In this document: positions 3,323 through 26,602 of the stretch, piece by piece
Position numbering within the stretch: position 1 is the stretch's first letter
How the letters are laid out: each line of letters starts with the position of its first letter
NCBI GenBank assembly: GCA_002011735.1
Contig: MTOQ01000052.1
Location: 1-40,124 of the forward strand
Source: Nitrospirae bacterium JdFR-81
GTDB taxonomy: Bacteria; Nitrospirota; Thermodesulfovibrionia; UBA6902
Reading direction: 5' to 3'
DNA: 40,124 bases
Notes under the pieces: model-generated
Database searches by the model: none
Told to the model about the DNA's origin: nothing
Seen by the model: only the letters and a program-made list of their open reading frames with translations
Made by a program: the position numbers and the translations under genes

Positions 3323-3355
3323 CAAAAACCTGCACTTACGAAGTGCAGGTTTTTG
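3323..3355. terminator. Bidirectional intrinsic terminator
   Basis: A perfect 14-bp stem (3324-3337 with 3341-3354) with a three-base ACG loop. The GC core CCTGCACTT is flanked by A5 on the left and T5 on the right, so it ends transcripts from both directions. It separates the plus-strand accessory genes from the minus-strand gene that ends at 3362. Confidence 0.93.
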
Positions 3356-3361
3356 GGGTAT

Positions 3362-4987
3362 TTATGTTGGGCATATTACCCTGCCGAGTATCTCTGTGAG
3401 CCTCAGATTCTCTGAGTAATCCACAGGACAGTCGATAACAGAGGGCCTGCGCTGTGAAAGGGCATCAGTGAGGATGTGGCCAAGCTCGCCCTCGCCTTCG
3501 ACCCTGTAGCCCTTTGCACCAAATGACTCGGCAAGCCTCACAAAATCGGGATTACCAAAGCTGCACCCAAACTCGTGGCCGAACCTCTTCATCTGTTTCC
3601 ATGAGATCATCCCATACGCCCTGTCGTTGAACACAAGGCACACAATGGGCAGGTTATATCTGAGCGCGGTCTCGAGCTCTGCCACACTCATCATGAAGCC
3701 ACCGTCTCCCATCACGGCCACGACATTCCTTTCGGGGTGGAGCATCTTTGCACTCAGTGCCGCTGGAAGGGCAAAGCCCATGGATGCAAAGCCATTGGAT
3801 ATGATCGATGTGAGGGGTTCGTATGCAGGATAAAACCTCGCCAGCCATATCTTGTGTGCACCAACATCACTGACCAGGATATCCTCCCTCCCAAGGGCCT
3901 CCCTGAGCTCTTTGACTATTCTCTGGGGCTTTAACGGGAAACCGCTGAGGTCCTGCATGAATGGAGAATCCATTGACTCCCTGAGCCTGAAGAAGTACTC
4001 GCCTTCTTTATCAAAATCTATAAGCTCATTCAGCCTCCTCAATGTCTCCTTGATATCACCCACCAGCGGGAATGCATTGTAGCGGGCGTCTACCTCAGGA
4101 GGTGTAAACCCTATGTGGATGACCTTCTTGTCACCACCAGGGTTCCAGTACAGGGGACTGAACTCCACAAAATCATATCCAATGGCGATAATGAGGTCTG
4201 CCCTCTCAAAACCACATGATATATAGTCCTTTGACTGGAGGCCTGTGGTTGAGAGGAAGAGCCTGCTGTCAGCAGGGATCGCACCCATCCCCATGAATGT
4301 GGTCGTCACGGCGATGTTTGCCCTTTCTGCAAAGGCCCTCAGTTCATGAGAGGCACCTGCCCTGATAACCCCATTGCCTGCGAGTATGAGCGGGTTCTCT
4401 GCCTCCTTTATCATCTCCACGGCCTTCCTGACCCTTGACCCGTCTGCAGGCGGACAGGCACCATCCAGATATTCAAGGGGTTCACCCCATGCCTGCATGC
4501 CTGCAACATCCTGCGGGACCTCTATGTGGGTGGGGCCCGGCTTCTCAAGGGTGGCTATCATGAACGCCTTCCTGATAACCTCTGGTATCACATCAGGCCT
4601 CTCAACCCTTATATTCCATTTCGTCAGTGGCCTGAAGACAGAGAGTATATCAACATATTGATGGGACTCCTTATGGAACTCTGATAGCTCGGTCTGTCCT
4701 GTGATGGCCACCATGGGAGAGAAGTCAAGAAGGGCATCTGCGGTGCCGGTTATAAGATTGGTTGCACCTGGGCCAAGTGTGGAGAGGCAGACACCAGGGC
4801 GGTGCGTCAACCTGCCCCATGCGTTTGCCATGAATGCGGCTGCCTGTTCATGCCTTGTTGTGATAAAGGTGATATCTGAGCTCCTTATCGCCTCGAGCAA
4901 CTCAAGGGTCTCCTCGCCAGGGATACCAAATACATGACGTATACCCTCTGCCTCAAGACACCTGACGAACAGCTCAGAGGCCTTCAT
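3362..4987 (-). CDS. Acetolactate synthase-like ThDP-dependent enzyme
   Basis: A 541-aa enzyme of the thiamine-diphosphate acetolactate synthase/pyruvate oxidase family, closest by eye to the stand-alone AlsS/PRK08322 group labelled acetolactate synthase large subunit. Seen: ELFVRCLEAEGIRHVFGIPGE at the start, the cofactor-activating Glu in TRHEQAA (Glu47), LSTLGPGATNL, and the ThDP motif beginning GDGGF near 427 and closing with FNDRAYG near 454-460. No regulatory (small) subunit gene is nearby, so it is more likely catabolic or of another specificity than the branched-chain biosynthetic enzyme. Its ATG overlaps the stop of the upstream phosphatase gene by four bases (ATGA), so the two are co-translated. 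Confidence 0.85.
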   Translation of the reverse strand: MKASELFVRCLEAEGIRHVFGIPGEETLELLEAIRSSDITFITTRHEQAAAFMANAWGRLTHRPGVCLSTLGPGATNLITGTADALLDFSPMVAITGQTELSEFHKESHQYVDILSVFRPLTKWNIRVERPDVIPEVIRKAFMIATLEKPGPTHIEVPQDVAGMQAWGEPLEYLDGACPPADGSRVRKAVEMIKEAENPLILAGNGVIRAGASHELRAFAERANIAVTTTFMGMGAIPADSRLFLSTTGLQSKDYISCGFERADLIIAIGYDFVEFSPLYWNPGGDKKVIHIGFTPPEVDARYNAFPLVGDIKETLRRLNELIDFDKEGEYFFRLRESMDSPFMQDLSGFPLKPQRIVKELREALGREDILVSDVGAHKIWLARFYPAYEPLTSIISNGFASMGFALPAALSAKMLHPERNVVAVMGDGGFMMSVAELETALRYNLPIVCLVFNDRAYGMISWKQMKRFGHEFGCSFGNPDFVRLAESFGAKGYRVEGEGELGHILTDALSQRRPSVIDCPVDYSENLRLTEILGRVICPT

Positions 4988-22734: not shown

Positions 22735-23358
22735 TTAACTCAAGAGTGATAGCTCCATGACCTTCCTGAAGCTCCTCCTGTGGATGGGGCATGGCCCGTG
22801 TAGCTGAAGCAGTCTCACATGCTCCTGTGTTGAATACCCCTTGTGGCTCTTAAAATTATAAACAGGGTATCTATCATGATACTCCATCATTATCTCATCC
22901 CTTAACACCTTTGCCACGATCGAGGCCGATGCAATCGAGGCGCTCACCCTCTCGCCCTTCACTATAGACCTCTGCTCGATCTTGAGGGAAGGGAGGCTTA
23001 TGGCATCGATCAACAGTATATCAGGCCTGACCCTGAGGTCATCCACCGCCCTCTCCATGGCCAGCCTGGTGGCATTAAGGATATTCACCCTGTCTATGGT
23101 GTCGGCATCCACTATCCCGACCCCTATATCAATGGCCACAGAGACGATATCCCAGAAGAGCCTCCTTCGTAGCCCTTCGGTCGTCTGTTTGGAATCCCTC
23201 AGGTCTTTGATAACGATGTCCGGTGGAAGGATGACAGCAGAGGCCACCACAGGGCCTGCAAGGGGCCCCCTGCCTGCCTCATCAATGCCTGCTATAAGAG
23301 GGTATCTGTGTCGGACCCTGGCATCGTAAAGAAAGATGTCTTTCTCCTCCGAGCCCAT
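22735..23358 (-). CDS. rnhB: Ribonuclease HII
   Basis: Removes ribonucleotides and RNA primers from DNA. 207 aa. IAGIDEAGRGPLAGPV (22-37) holds the Asp-Glu pair Asp26-Glu27; LLIDAISLPSL carries the third acid and ASIVAKVLRDE the conserved basic and acidic residues. Last gene of the ribosomal/tRNA cluster, 26 bases after rplS. Confidence 0.96.
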   Translation of the reverse strand: MGSEEKDIFLYDARVRHRYPLIAGIDEAGRGPLAGPVVASAVILPPDIVIKDLRDSKQTTEGLRRRLFWDIVSVAIDIGVGIVDADTIDRVNILNATRLAMERAVDDLRVRPDILLIDAISLPSLKIEQRSIVKGERVSASIASASIVAKVLRDEIMMEYHDRYPVYNFKSHKGYSTQEHVRLLQLHGPCPIHRRSFRKVMELSLLS

Positions 23359-23384: not shown

Positions 23385-23738
23385 TCAGGCCCTGATGAAT
23401 GCCTTCTCCTTGATCTTTGCAGCCTTACCCTTCTTGTGGCGGATATAATAGAGCTTCGCCCTTCTCACATCGCCCCGTTTGACCACCCTGATCTCCTCTA
23501 TAAGGGGTGAGTGGAGGGGGAATATCTTCTCAACCCCGATGCCATAGGAAATCTTCCTCACCGTGAATGTCTCACGGAGTCCGCTCCCCCGCCTTGCTAT
23601 CACCACACCTTCAAAGGACTGGAGCCTCTCCTTATCGCCCTCCTTCACCCTCATCGTAACCCTCACCGTGTCACCTATATTAAAGGGCGGGACCTCTTTT
23701 TTCTTATAACCCTCTTCAACTATCTTTATCGCATCCAT
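23385..23738 (-). CDS. rplS: 50S ribosomal protein L19
   Basis: A 117-aa protein of the subunit interface. [28 protein letters not shown] contains the family start ([11 protein letters not shown]), followed by [31 protein letters not shown] in variant form and [14 protein letters not shown] lies seven bases before the ATG. Between trmD and rnhB, the usual order. Confidence 0.97.
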
Positions 23739-23800
23739 CGTATACCTCCATAAAGGGGACTTTATCTCAAGGTTAAGATTTTACTATTTTATAACATAAT

Positions 23801-24538
23801 TTACAACAGCTCCTCCCTCAGCTCCGAGAGTATCCTCCTGTCAAGCTCAGAGAGCTCCATCCTCTCAAGGAGGTCAGGCCTCTTGATGAGTGTCCTCCTG
23901 AGGGCCTCCCGCCTCCTCCAGAGCCATATCTCTCTATGATTGCCTGAAAGCAGGACATCCGGGACCTTCATCCCCCTGAATTCACGGGGCCTTGTATAAT
24001 GGGGATATTCAAGCAACTGGGATGTGAATGACTCCTCCTCGGCCGACCTCTCATCACCCAGGGCCCCTGGGATGAGCCTCGTGGCAGCATCGATCACAAC
24101 GAGGGCGGCAAGCTCTCCACCTGTGATTATATAGTCTCCAATGGATATCTCATCATCAACAAGCGCAAGCCTCACCCTCTCATCAATCCCCTCATACCGT
24201 CCACATATAAAGATGAACCTCTGACCGCTCTGTGAGAACTCTTTGGCAATGGCCTGCGTGAATACCCTGCCCTGTGGACTCAGAAGCACAACCCTCCTCT
24301 CCTCACCATCACCCTTCAGGGCCTCGACCGCATTGAACAGGGGCTCGGGCTTGAGGACCATGCCTGCACCACCACCAAAGGGATAGTCATCCACCTTCCT
24401 GTGTCTGTCGGATGTAAAGTCCCTGAGATTGTATACCTTTACGTCAAGCAGCCCCTTCTCTTGTGCCCTCCTGAGGATGCTCTCATCGAGATAGGCCTTT
24501 ATTATATCAGGGAAGATCGTGAGGACATCGCATCTCAT
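23801..24538 (-). CDS. trmD: tRNA (guanine-N1)-methyltransferase
   Basis: Methylates G37 of tRNAs to keep reading frame, using SAM through a trefoil-knot (SPOUT) fold. 245 aa. [12 protein letters not shown] at the start, [28 protein letters not shown], and [14 protein letters not shown] with [15 protein letters not shown] mark the active site. In most bacteria rimM sits directly upstream; here the preceding region is a non-coding spacer with a terminator, so trmD probably has its own start or depends on read-through. Confidence 0.97.
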
Positions 24539-24550
24539 ACCAAGGCCCTA

Positions 24551-24582
24551 AAAGAAAATCAGCCACGGCAGCAAGCCGTGGC
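24551..24582 (-). terminator. Intrinsic terminator between khpA and trmD
   Basis: On the minus strand, GCCACGGC and GCCGTGGC (24582 to 24562) form an 8-bp GC stem with a five-base loop, followed by TGATTTTCTTTT. It lies after khpA and 24 bases before the trmD start codon, so it could end the rpsP-khpA transcript or act as an attenuator for trmD. Confidence 0.7.
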
Positions 24583-24717
24583 AAAAACAACCCCTCTTAA
24601 TGGGTCCTTATTACTGTGGAAGTTGATCTCTCCACATCGGGCGGATCGGTTGTAGCCCAGAAAACCGCCAGACCCGTTCGACCGTCCACGAGAAAAGGTG
24701 TCCGAATGCCTGCTTAA
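24583..24717 (-). other. GC-rich spacer of unknown role where rimM is expected
   Basis: 135 bases directly after the khpA stop on the minus strand. It is GC-rich, unlike the AT-rich spacers elsewhere in the window, and contains potential pairings such as GGCGG with CCGCC. No intact gene is present; short open frames exist but have no start or ribosome site. It does not match the SRP RNA or any riboswitch signature I know. Possibilities are a leader RNA for trmD, a small RNA ending at the adjacent terminator, or an inserted repeat. Confidence 0.4.
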
Positions 24718-24948
24718 CTATTCAAGTATCTCAAGGACACACCGCTTGCCGAGTTTCGTCCCAGCAGCACTCAGGATCGTCCTCATCGCCCTGGCTGTCT
24801 TCCCCTGCTTCCCGATGACCTTTCCAAGATCAGACGGAGCCACCCTCAGTTCGTATACGGTAGTCCTTTCTCCATCAACCTCGGTAACAACAACCTCCTC
24901 TGGCTTGTCCACCAGAGCCTTTGCCATCTGTCCGATTAGTTCCTTCAT
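24718..24948 (-). CDS. khpA: KH-domain RNA-binding protein KhpA
   Basis: A 76-aa single KH-domain protein (YlqC/KhpA), which with KhpB binds many RNAs in other bacteria. It shows [19 protein letters not shown] at the start and the GxxG loop in [13 protein letters not shown]. The start at 24948 matches the family start and follows GGAGGT by four bases. An upstream GTG at 24981 would add 11 residues and overlap rpsP by four bases; it is less likely. Placed after rpsP as usual. Confidence 0.92.
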
Positions 24949-24977
24949 CTCCACCTCCATGTGCATCTGGGCTGTTT

Positions 24978-25214
24978 TCACAGGCCCGCGATTTTCAAAA
25001 GCTTCTTAGCGATAGCAGTTGGTTGTGCACCACGATCGAGCCAGTATTTGGCCCTCTCTATGTCTATCCTTACCTCTGAGGGCTCCTTCATTGGATCATA
25101 GATACCTATGATCTCAAGAAAAGGACCATCCCTCCTCTTGCGTGAATCAGCCACTACAACCCTGTAAAACGGCCTCTTCTTCTTGCCCCTCCTTGTTAAC
25201 CTGATCCTGACCAC
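24978..25214 (-). CDS. rpsP: 30S ribosomal protein S16
   Basis: 78 aa. [17 protein letters not shown] at the start and [18 protein letters not shown] are the family signature. It begins with GTG (25214), with GGAGG seven bases upstream. First ribosomal gene of the cluster after ffh. Confidence 0.97.
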
Positions 25215-25282: not shown

Positions 25283-26602
25283 CTAAAACCTGAATTGGGG
25301 AAGGCCGAGGCCCTTGCCCTTCCTCACCTTCTTGAGCATCTTCTTCATGGCCACATACTGCTTGATCAACCTGTTCACATCTGCAACCGTTGTGCCACTG
25401 CCCTGCGCTATCCTCCTCTTACGGCTGCTGTTGATTATAGTATAATTCGCCCTCTCCTCTTTTGTCATCGAGTTTATTATCGCCTCGATCTTGACAAACG
25501 CCCTGTCATCCACCTTGAGCCCCTTCATATGCTTCCCCAGCCCCGGGATCATACTCAGTATATTCTCCAGAGGCCCCATCCTCCTTATCTGATTTATCTG
25601 CGCCTTCAGGTCATCAAAGGTGAATATGTTCTTCCTCAGCCTCTCCTCAAGCGACATCGCCTCCCTCATATCGACCGCCGCCTGTGCCTTCTCAACAAGA
25701 CTCACCACATCACCCATACCCAGTATCCTTGAGGCCATCCTGTCGGGGTGGAACGGCTCAAGGAAGTCCAACTTCTCACCCACACCGATGAACTTTATAG
25801 GTTTGCCTGTAACCGAGACGATCGACAGCGCTGCCCCTCCCCTTGCGTCACCATCCATCTTCGTAAGGATCACACCATCTATATCAAGCCTCTCATTAAA
25901 TGCCTTTGCTATATTCACTGCGTCCTGGCCTGTCATGGCATCTGCAACAAGCAGTGTCTCCCTTGGCCTCGCCCTCTCCTTCAGCTCCTCAAGCTCCCTC
26001 ATGAGCTCTTCATTTATATGGAGCCTTCCTGCTGTATCAAGTATGAGGATATCCCTCCCCTCACGATTCGCTATATCGAATGCCCCTGAATAGACATTGA
26101 GCGGGTTGTCTCCGGCATGTGTAGAATGGACAGGCACATCTATCTGCTCACCCAGTGACCTGAGCTGCTCTATGGCAGCTGGCCTCTGGGTGTCGAGTGC
26201 AACAAGCATGGGCCTTCTTCCATCCTTTTTAAAGCCCTTTGCAAGCTTTGCAGCAGTGGTGGTCTTGCCCGAACCATGAAGCCCCACGAGCATAATGACC
26301 GTTGGTGGATTGGGTGCAAGGCTGATCTTGCTCTGTCCTCCGCCCATCAGACTGCAGAGCTCGTCATGGACGATCTTGACAACCTGCTGTCCCGGGGTTA
26401 TGCTCTCGATCACCTCCTTACCAACGGCCCTCTCCTTCACCCTCTCCACAAAGTCCTTGACCACCTTGAAGTTGACATCGGCCTCAAGAAGGGCCATCCT
26501 CACCTCCTTGAGGGCTGCAACGACATCCTCCTCCCTGAGCAGTCCCCTGCCCTTCAGCTTCCTGAATATTCCATCCAGCCTCTCTGACAATGATTCAAAC
26601 AT
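25283..26602 (-). CDS. ffh: Signal recognition particle protein Ffh
   Basis: GTPase that, with 4.5S RNA, brings nascent membrane proteins to FtsY. 439 aa. NG domain with P-loop GLHGSGKTTTAAKL (about 107-120), DTQRPAA, DTAGRL and TKMDGDARGG; the methionine-rich M domain from about 300 includes RRMGPLENILSMIPGLG and SGTTVADVNRLIKQY. The 4.5S RNA gene itself is not in the window. Confidence 0.98.
   Translation of the reverse strand: MFESLSERLDGIFRKLKGRGLLREEDVVAALKEVRMALLEADVNFKVVKDFVERVKERAVGKEVIESITPGQQVVKIVHDELCSLMGGGQSKISLAPNPPTVIMLVGLHGSGKTTTAAKLAKGFKKDGRRPMLVALDTQRPAAIEQLRSLGEQIDVPVHSTHAGDNPLNVYSGAFDIANREGRDILILDTAGRLHINEELMRELEELKERARPRETLLVADAMTGQDAVNIAKAFNERLDIDGVILTKMDGDARGGAALSIVSVTGKPIKFIGVGEKLDFLEPFHPDRMASRILGMGDVVSLVEKAQAAVDMREAMSLEERLRKNIFTFDDLKAQINQIRRMGPLENILSMIPGLGKHMKGLKVDDRAFVKIEAIINSMTKEERANYTIINSSRKRRIAQGSGTTVADVNRLIKQYVAMKKMLKKVRKGKGLGLPQFRF

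Follow-up and report, generated by a model that had tools for sequence, protein, structure and literature searches.

Apparent loss of rimM beside a predicted khpA terminator, with linked decay of the S19 C-terminal tail, in a class of bacteria

The gene rimM is missing between khpA and trmD in the window, by which we mean the whole stretch of 40,124 nucleotides analysed here, and 179 bases without a gene lie between its would-be neighbors. A single explanation likely accounts for this locus. Specifically, rimM would have been deleted in the lineage, the feature that now separates khpA from trmD would be an old upstream terminator accompanied by filler, trmD would be expressed by a read-through arrangement like that of Bacillus subtilis, and the C-terminal tail of ribosomal protein S19 would have decayed once RimM was gone. 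A preliminary description of this DNA had reported the missing gene and the length of the gap, and both the gene order and the coordinates bear this out. It had also proposed that a GC-rich, structured spacer and a terminator took the place of rimM. The core of that observation, the absence of rimM, is real, and a terminator is indeed present; the GC-rich structured replacement is wrong. The observation is partly confirmed, and the interpretation built on it is partly supported.

The genes of the locus lie on the minus strand, each an ORF, in the order ffh (25283..26602, 439 aa, used as the synteny query), rpsP (24978..25214, encoding S16 and conserved among relatives in the class), khpA (24718..24981), the gap, trmD (23801..24538), rplS (23385..23738, encoding L19) and rnhB (22735..23358). 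The product of khpA is a KH-domain RNA-binding protein (ylqC of Bacillus) that is 73-92% identical in relatives of the same family or order. TrmD is 62-72% identical in relatives. From 5' to 3', the spacer consists of a 135-base part (24583..24717), a hairpin (24562..24582), the T-rich tail TGATTTTCTTTT (24550..24561) and 11 further bases before the start of trmD. The nearest named TrmD is that of a Nitrospirae MAG (63%), and the class of relatives used for comparison probably belongs to Nitrospirota.

The hairpin, GCCACGGCTTGCTGCCGTGGC in full (GCCACGGC-TTGCT-GCCGTGGC, 24582-24562), has the kind of GC-rich stem, of 5-7 bp or more with a short loop, that is associated with Rho-independent termination: 8 perfect pairs, 7 of them G-C, closed by a loop of 5 bases, with a folding energy of -16.5 kcal/mol. 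The T-rich tract directly 3' of the stem is the second hallmark of such terminators and is the predicted 3' end of the ffh-rpsP-khpA mRNA. The preliminary description had recognized this 8-bp GC stem with its T-rich run before the trmD ATG; 23 bases separate the stem from the ATG. Dinucleotide shuffling of the spacer gave an equal or better hairpin in 2/2000 cases. Taken together, these features predict a strong intrinsic (Rho-independent) terminator of a known kind. A scan of the 40-kb window for perfect stems returned two terminator-like sites, and the khpA hairpin is the only GC-rich one. The other, AT-rich site (3323-3355) is an inverted repeat of 15 perfect pairs around a 3-base loop, flanked on either side by T-rich sequence and located just past the end of an ORF at 3362-4987; it is likely a bidirectional terminator.

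Does the hairpin belong to khpA or to the place of rimM? Among class genomes with a readable locus, junctions of at least 40 bases were scored for terminator-like hairpins, defined by an energy of -8 kcal/mol or lower and a tail in which some 6-base stretch holds 4 or more T. Such hairpins are present in 63/87 khpA-trmD gaps of RimM-negative genomes, where shuffling predicts 18.6, and in 13/20 khpA-rimM gaps of RimM-positive genomes, where it predicts 4.1. The remaining junctions have little or no excess: 14/68 for ffh-rpsP (10.9 expected), 2/15 for trmD-rplS (0.6 expected) and 5/18 for rplS-rnhB (2.5 expected). In family f9, the terminator is found in 7/7 RimM-positive and 13/13 RimM-negative gaps, and its stem is nearly always AAGGGGCGTTT/AAACGCCCCTT, shortly past the khpA stop codon, irrespective of RimM. 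The f9 stem hardly varies, with 98.5% of pair cells kept, and covariation within it is therefore weak. The case for the hairpin comes from the different stems found at this one position in different families, such as AAAGGGCGTG in f19, AAGGGGTAGAAGG in f18 and GGAGAAGG in f1. RimM-positive members of f14 also have a khpA-rimM terminator, and loci in Firmicutes and Kiritimatiellales have hairpins with T tails at the khpA junction as well. The arrangement matches that of terminator T1 of B. subtilis in lying directly 3' of khpA and upstream of rimM or trmD, in relatives with and without rimM. Judged by this distribution, the hairpin belongs to khpA and not to the place of rimM, and the earlier suggestion that it stands in for rimM fails on the terminators at the same junction in RimM-positive relatives and in Firmicutes.

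A related possibility is that the terminator arrived with the loss of rimM, filling its place and splitting the operon into two units. The only RimM-positive genome of the window's order, G027, has khpA and rimM 3 bases apart and no hairpin, so the hairpin could be secondary within the order. At the level of the class, however, this scenario is contradicted by the khpA-rimM hairpins of RimM-positive f9 and f14 members, by the identity of the f9 stem in RimM-negative members, and by the terminators of B. subtilis and other rimM-bearing Firmicutes; we consider it unlikely. The favored reading is that the terminator predates the loss of rimM in the class, because the same junction, and in f9 the same stem, is occupied in RimM-positive relatives. 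The loss would then have brought trmD next to a pre-existing khpA terminator. Within the window's order, the history of the hairpin may be more complicated, given that 16 of the 30 scored spacers in the window's own family pass the terminator threshold and that G027 has no hairpin. In some related genera the khpA-trmD gap is a mere 0-37 bases long; in others it holds an AT-rich palindrome that no clear T run follows.

Three further patterns were seen at these junctions. First, in several members of the family or order (L018, L019, L020, L022, L026, L027, L029, L030, L034, L037), khpA and trmD are separated by an AT-rich palindrome such as ACCACAGAGG...CCTCTGTGGT or AAGTGAGAAGTAAGAAG..., unlike the GC-rich terminators; this may be a mobile palindromic element. 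Second, in many members of the family, TAGAAT or TTGAAT follows the hairpin about 17-20 bases ahead of a trmD start without a clear Shine-Dalgarno sequence (L014, L021, L031, L039, L040, L150, L152, L156, L160), and may be either a weak U tract or the -10 box of a near-leaderless trmD mRNA. Third, family f8 does not have khpA upstream of trmD; another gene lies directly before it, often ending in AAAAAGAAATAG (L163, L166, L168, L170, L171, L185, L188, L195, L201).

What fills the rest of the spacer? The 5' 135 bases had been described as GC-rich with possible internal pairing. Their GC content is 51.1%, versus 50.7% for the window, and the whole 179-base spacer folds no more stably than its shuffles (z = -1.0). 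The 135-base part has no match in the relatives searched, and its sole match in the genome is itself. No Rfam family matched the spacer at gathering or relaxed thresholds, and the length of the khpA-trmD spacer ranges from 0 to 321 bases in relatives. By every comparison made here, the 135 bases look like meaningless filler, with a weak second terminator-like hairpin at 24606-24589. These results speak against the earlier proposals of a leader RNA, small RNA or repeat insertion. An interspersed repeat was rejected, with the spacer present in a single copy in the genome and the hairpin unique within the window. A decayed rimM was likewise rejected: a search of the spacer in any frame gave no RimM signal to E 10, whereas it did recover the remnants in two other genomes described below.

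One version of the leader RNA proposal has the whole 179-base spacer acting as a structured attenuator or r-leader that regulates trmD-rplS-rnhB through a ligand such as S16, L19 or tRNA. The two tandem terminator-like hairpins fit this proposal, as does the r-leader known upstream of rpsP-rimM in Flavobacteria (PMC7247131). Nevertheless, we regard it as improbable. Apart from the terminator, the spacer shares no sequence or structure with any relative, and the 135-base part, having no relatives, shows no conserved structure with covariation of the sort expected of a leader RNA or riboswitch. The ordinary folding energy, the missing Rfam family and the variable spacer length in relatives also count against it. 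Similarly improbable is that the 3' hairpin stabilizes a small RNA derived from the khpA mRNA 3' end. Terminator-derived 3' ends often become small RNAs, and the stretch ahead of the hairpin is of suitable length, but that stretch is neither conserved nor matched in Rfam. The reading of the spacer as a khpA terminator preceded by filler is preferred to both.

The preliminary description had allowed that rimM either moved or was lost. A genome-wide search with three profiles, PF01782, PRC_RimM (PF24986) and a class-specific profile (A2; 26 RimM proteins, mostly from the class plus other bacteria), found neither the N domain nor the PRC barrel of RimM anywhere in the window's genome, an assembly of 2.05 Mb in 95 contigs that is 96% complete and that yields S19 and RbfA. 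Loss is upheld by this result and relocation is not. RimM is absent in 37/37 members of the family that were searched, single-contig genomes among them, and was not found in complete genomes of family f19. The only RimM in the window's order is that of G027, whose gene has khpA and trmD as its neighbors in the canonical arrangement, and rimM occupies the same place in Nitrospira loci. Across 230 genomes of the class, the search scores are bimodal, with 80 unambiguous RimM proteins (E < 1e-29), 2 remnants, 3 weak partial PRC-like matches and nothing in the other ~145. Both remnants lie in the khpA-trmD gap of genomes from genus g25. In G035 (L162, G035:C40:7514-7750), RimM residues 1-45 run straight into residues 134-167 within an 86-codon frame, the product of an in-frame deletion of residues 46-133. 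In G053 (L161, G053:C80:7355-7447), only the last 31 RimM codons are left. On the evidence of these sequences, rimM has been lost in the lineage of the window, one of many independent losses in the class.

Two observations concern rimM status elsewhere. Genome G191 has two trmD loci (L042, G191:C42; L228, G191:C8), and the TrmD of the rimM-bearing locus forms a separate long branch amid the outgroups. The rimM-bearing contig is probably a contaminant, and family f8 is likely without RimM. In addition, several loci from Verrucomicrobiota/Kiritimatiellales and Hydrogenedentota (L076, L096, L108, L121, L130, L136, L147) have no rimM between khpA and trmD, judged by position.

Loss of RimM has a counterpart in S19. 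The PRC barrel of RimM binds S19 (PMC8073977; PMC9032327), and in the Thermus thermophilus complex 3A1P the C-terminal tail of S19 touches RimM; S19 residues 84-93 are unresolved in a Mycobacterium tuberculosis ribosome structure (PMC8073977). In 72 genomes of the class, the S19 residues most strongly associated with RimM are those of the C-terminal tail: RimM-positive S19 proteins end in KTTSVKG or similar, and RimM-negative ones do not. The motif was first seen in these 72 genomes and held in 58 fetched afterwards. Over all 130, a tail of the (T/S)(T/S)xVKG type is present in 51/55 RimM-positive genomes versus 1/75 RimM-negative genomes. The sole RimM-negative genome with the tail is G035, the bearer of a rimM remnant. 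Four RimM-positive genomes depart from the motif: the three members of family f7, and G127, whose KTAKVKVK comes close to it. The S19 gene of the window's genome is at G000:C48:11446-11688 (L261, L379), and the RimM-linked tail is gone there as well. To our knowledge, E. coli-type S19 tails do not have TTxVKG even though E. coli has RimM; hence, the motif characterizes this lineage and is not universal. RimM binding would explain why the tail exists: once RimM is lost, assembly of the 30S head would proceed without it, and the tail, freed from selection, would decay.

The association between RimM and the tail was also assessed against shared ancestry. A tree of TrmD alone lacked the resolution that paired tests need, yielding 3 independent starred pairs, so an L23-L2-L22-S3 tree of 98 genomes was used. 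On this tree, the minimum number of changes is 11 for RimM status and 10 for the tail. Among independent pairs on well-supported branches, a differing tail goes with RimM in 5-6 pairs versus 0 in most pairings (sign test over pairings, median p 0.06). A model in which the two traits are correlated is strongly favored over one in which they are independent (likelihood ratio 54.7, p 4e-11), and the same is true of a losses-only model (likelihood ratio 60.7, p 7e-14), with a tail loss rate of 36 without RimM versus 0.22 with it. The losses-only model has 15 losses of each trait, a number that is approximate because the trees are quick ones with an arbitrary midpoint root. The free model leaves the direction of change unsettled; the reading of the change as loss is based on the constant position of rimM, its identical place in other phyla and the remnants. 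The tail probably decays after rimM is lost, and does so repeatedly. That rimM was simply missed, either in the unassembled 4% of a 95-contig draft or by divergence beyond recognition, is very improbable in light of the RimM-negative single-contig and complete relatives, the remnants in G035 and G053, and the missing S19 tail. It is probable that RimM was lost about a dozen times or more in the class, each loss being followed by decay of the lineage-specific RimM-docking peptide (T/S)(T/S)xVKG at the S19 C-terminus. The class would then offer, ready-made by nature, matched ribosomes that do and do not depend on RimM, a few of them in mid-change, such as that of G035, where rimM is broken and the tail is intact.

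How is trmD expressed behind a terminator? In B. subtilis, terminator T1 has been mapped downstream of ylqC (khpA), read-through transcripts extend to T3, and a separate promoter, P3, lies upstream of rplS (PMC10100781). A separate trmD promoter between the hairpin and the ATG was considered and rejected, since 23 bases leave no room for one; the trmD mRNA would therefore have to come by read-through past the hairpin. By analogy, most transcripts would end at the hairpin after khpA, giving the ffh-rpsP-khpA mRNA, and a minority would read through into trmD, keeping TrmD, a protein needed in small amounts, at a low level. The function of the hairpin is most likely this partial termination, which would lower trmD expression. 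L19 is needed in ribosomal amounts, and rplS would receive additional transcription from a promoter immediately before it. A candidate for that promoter, the promoter-like TTGTAA-17-TAAAAT just upstream of rplS (23778..23806, minus strand), has 9/12 matches to the consensus and is proposed from this consensus match; it sits at the place of P3. The earlier suggestion of an attenuator for trmD-rplS-rnhB is plausible for the terminator hairpin alone and not for the rest of the spacer.

What are the implications? First, repeated loss of RimM without collapse of the genome suggests that assembly of the 30S head can be rewired. Second, close relatives with and without RimM provide pairs for asking how such rewiring occurs. 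Third, the S19 tail motif points to a specific contact that can be tested. There is nothing unusual about the terminator, and its lesson concerns the reading of operons: a gap where rimM should be need not mean a new regulatory RNA. The part worth following is the repeated loss of RimM with decay of the S19 tail, of which no description was found in the literature searched.

These findings can be set against three known systems. RimM, a factor for building the small ribosomal subunit, is conserved in > 90% of non-CPR bacteria (PMC12641178); E. coli cells deleted for rimM grow more slowly and are slower to process 16S rRNA (PMC9032327). As in CPR/Patescibacteria, a lineage that has lost ribosome biogenesis factors (PMC12641178), rimM is nearly absent across a whole lineage. 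Unlike CPR bacteria, which have reduced genomes and have lost many factors, most genomes here are ~1.8-4.2 Mb and RbfA is kept; moreover, the losses of rimM are many and scattered, with remnants still visible. The S19 segment that varies with RimM in this class is the same tail segment that touches RimM in 3A1P (PMC8073977). Neither the (T/S)(T/S)xVKG motif nor its decay once RimM is lost is described in the literature found, and the present link was drawn from sequences. Finally, the locus resembles the ylxM-ffh-rpsP-ylqC-ylqD-rimM-trmD-rplS region of B. subtilis (PMC10100781), where termination and read-through have been demonstrated; here, both are predicted. In B. subtilis, ylqD and rimM come after T1, whereas here trmD follows directly, 23 bases past the stem. 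The two loci agree in gene order, in the junction that carries the terminator and the shape of that terminator, in having trmD and rplS downstream, and in the position before rplS of the promoter, which is a candidate here.
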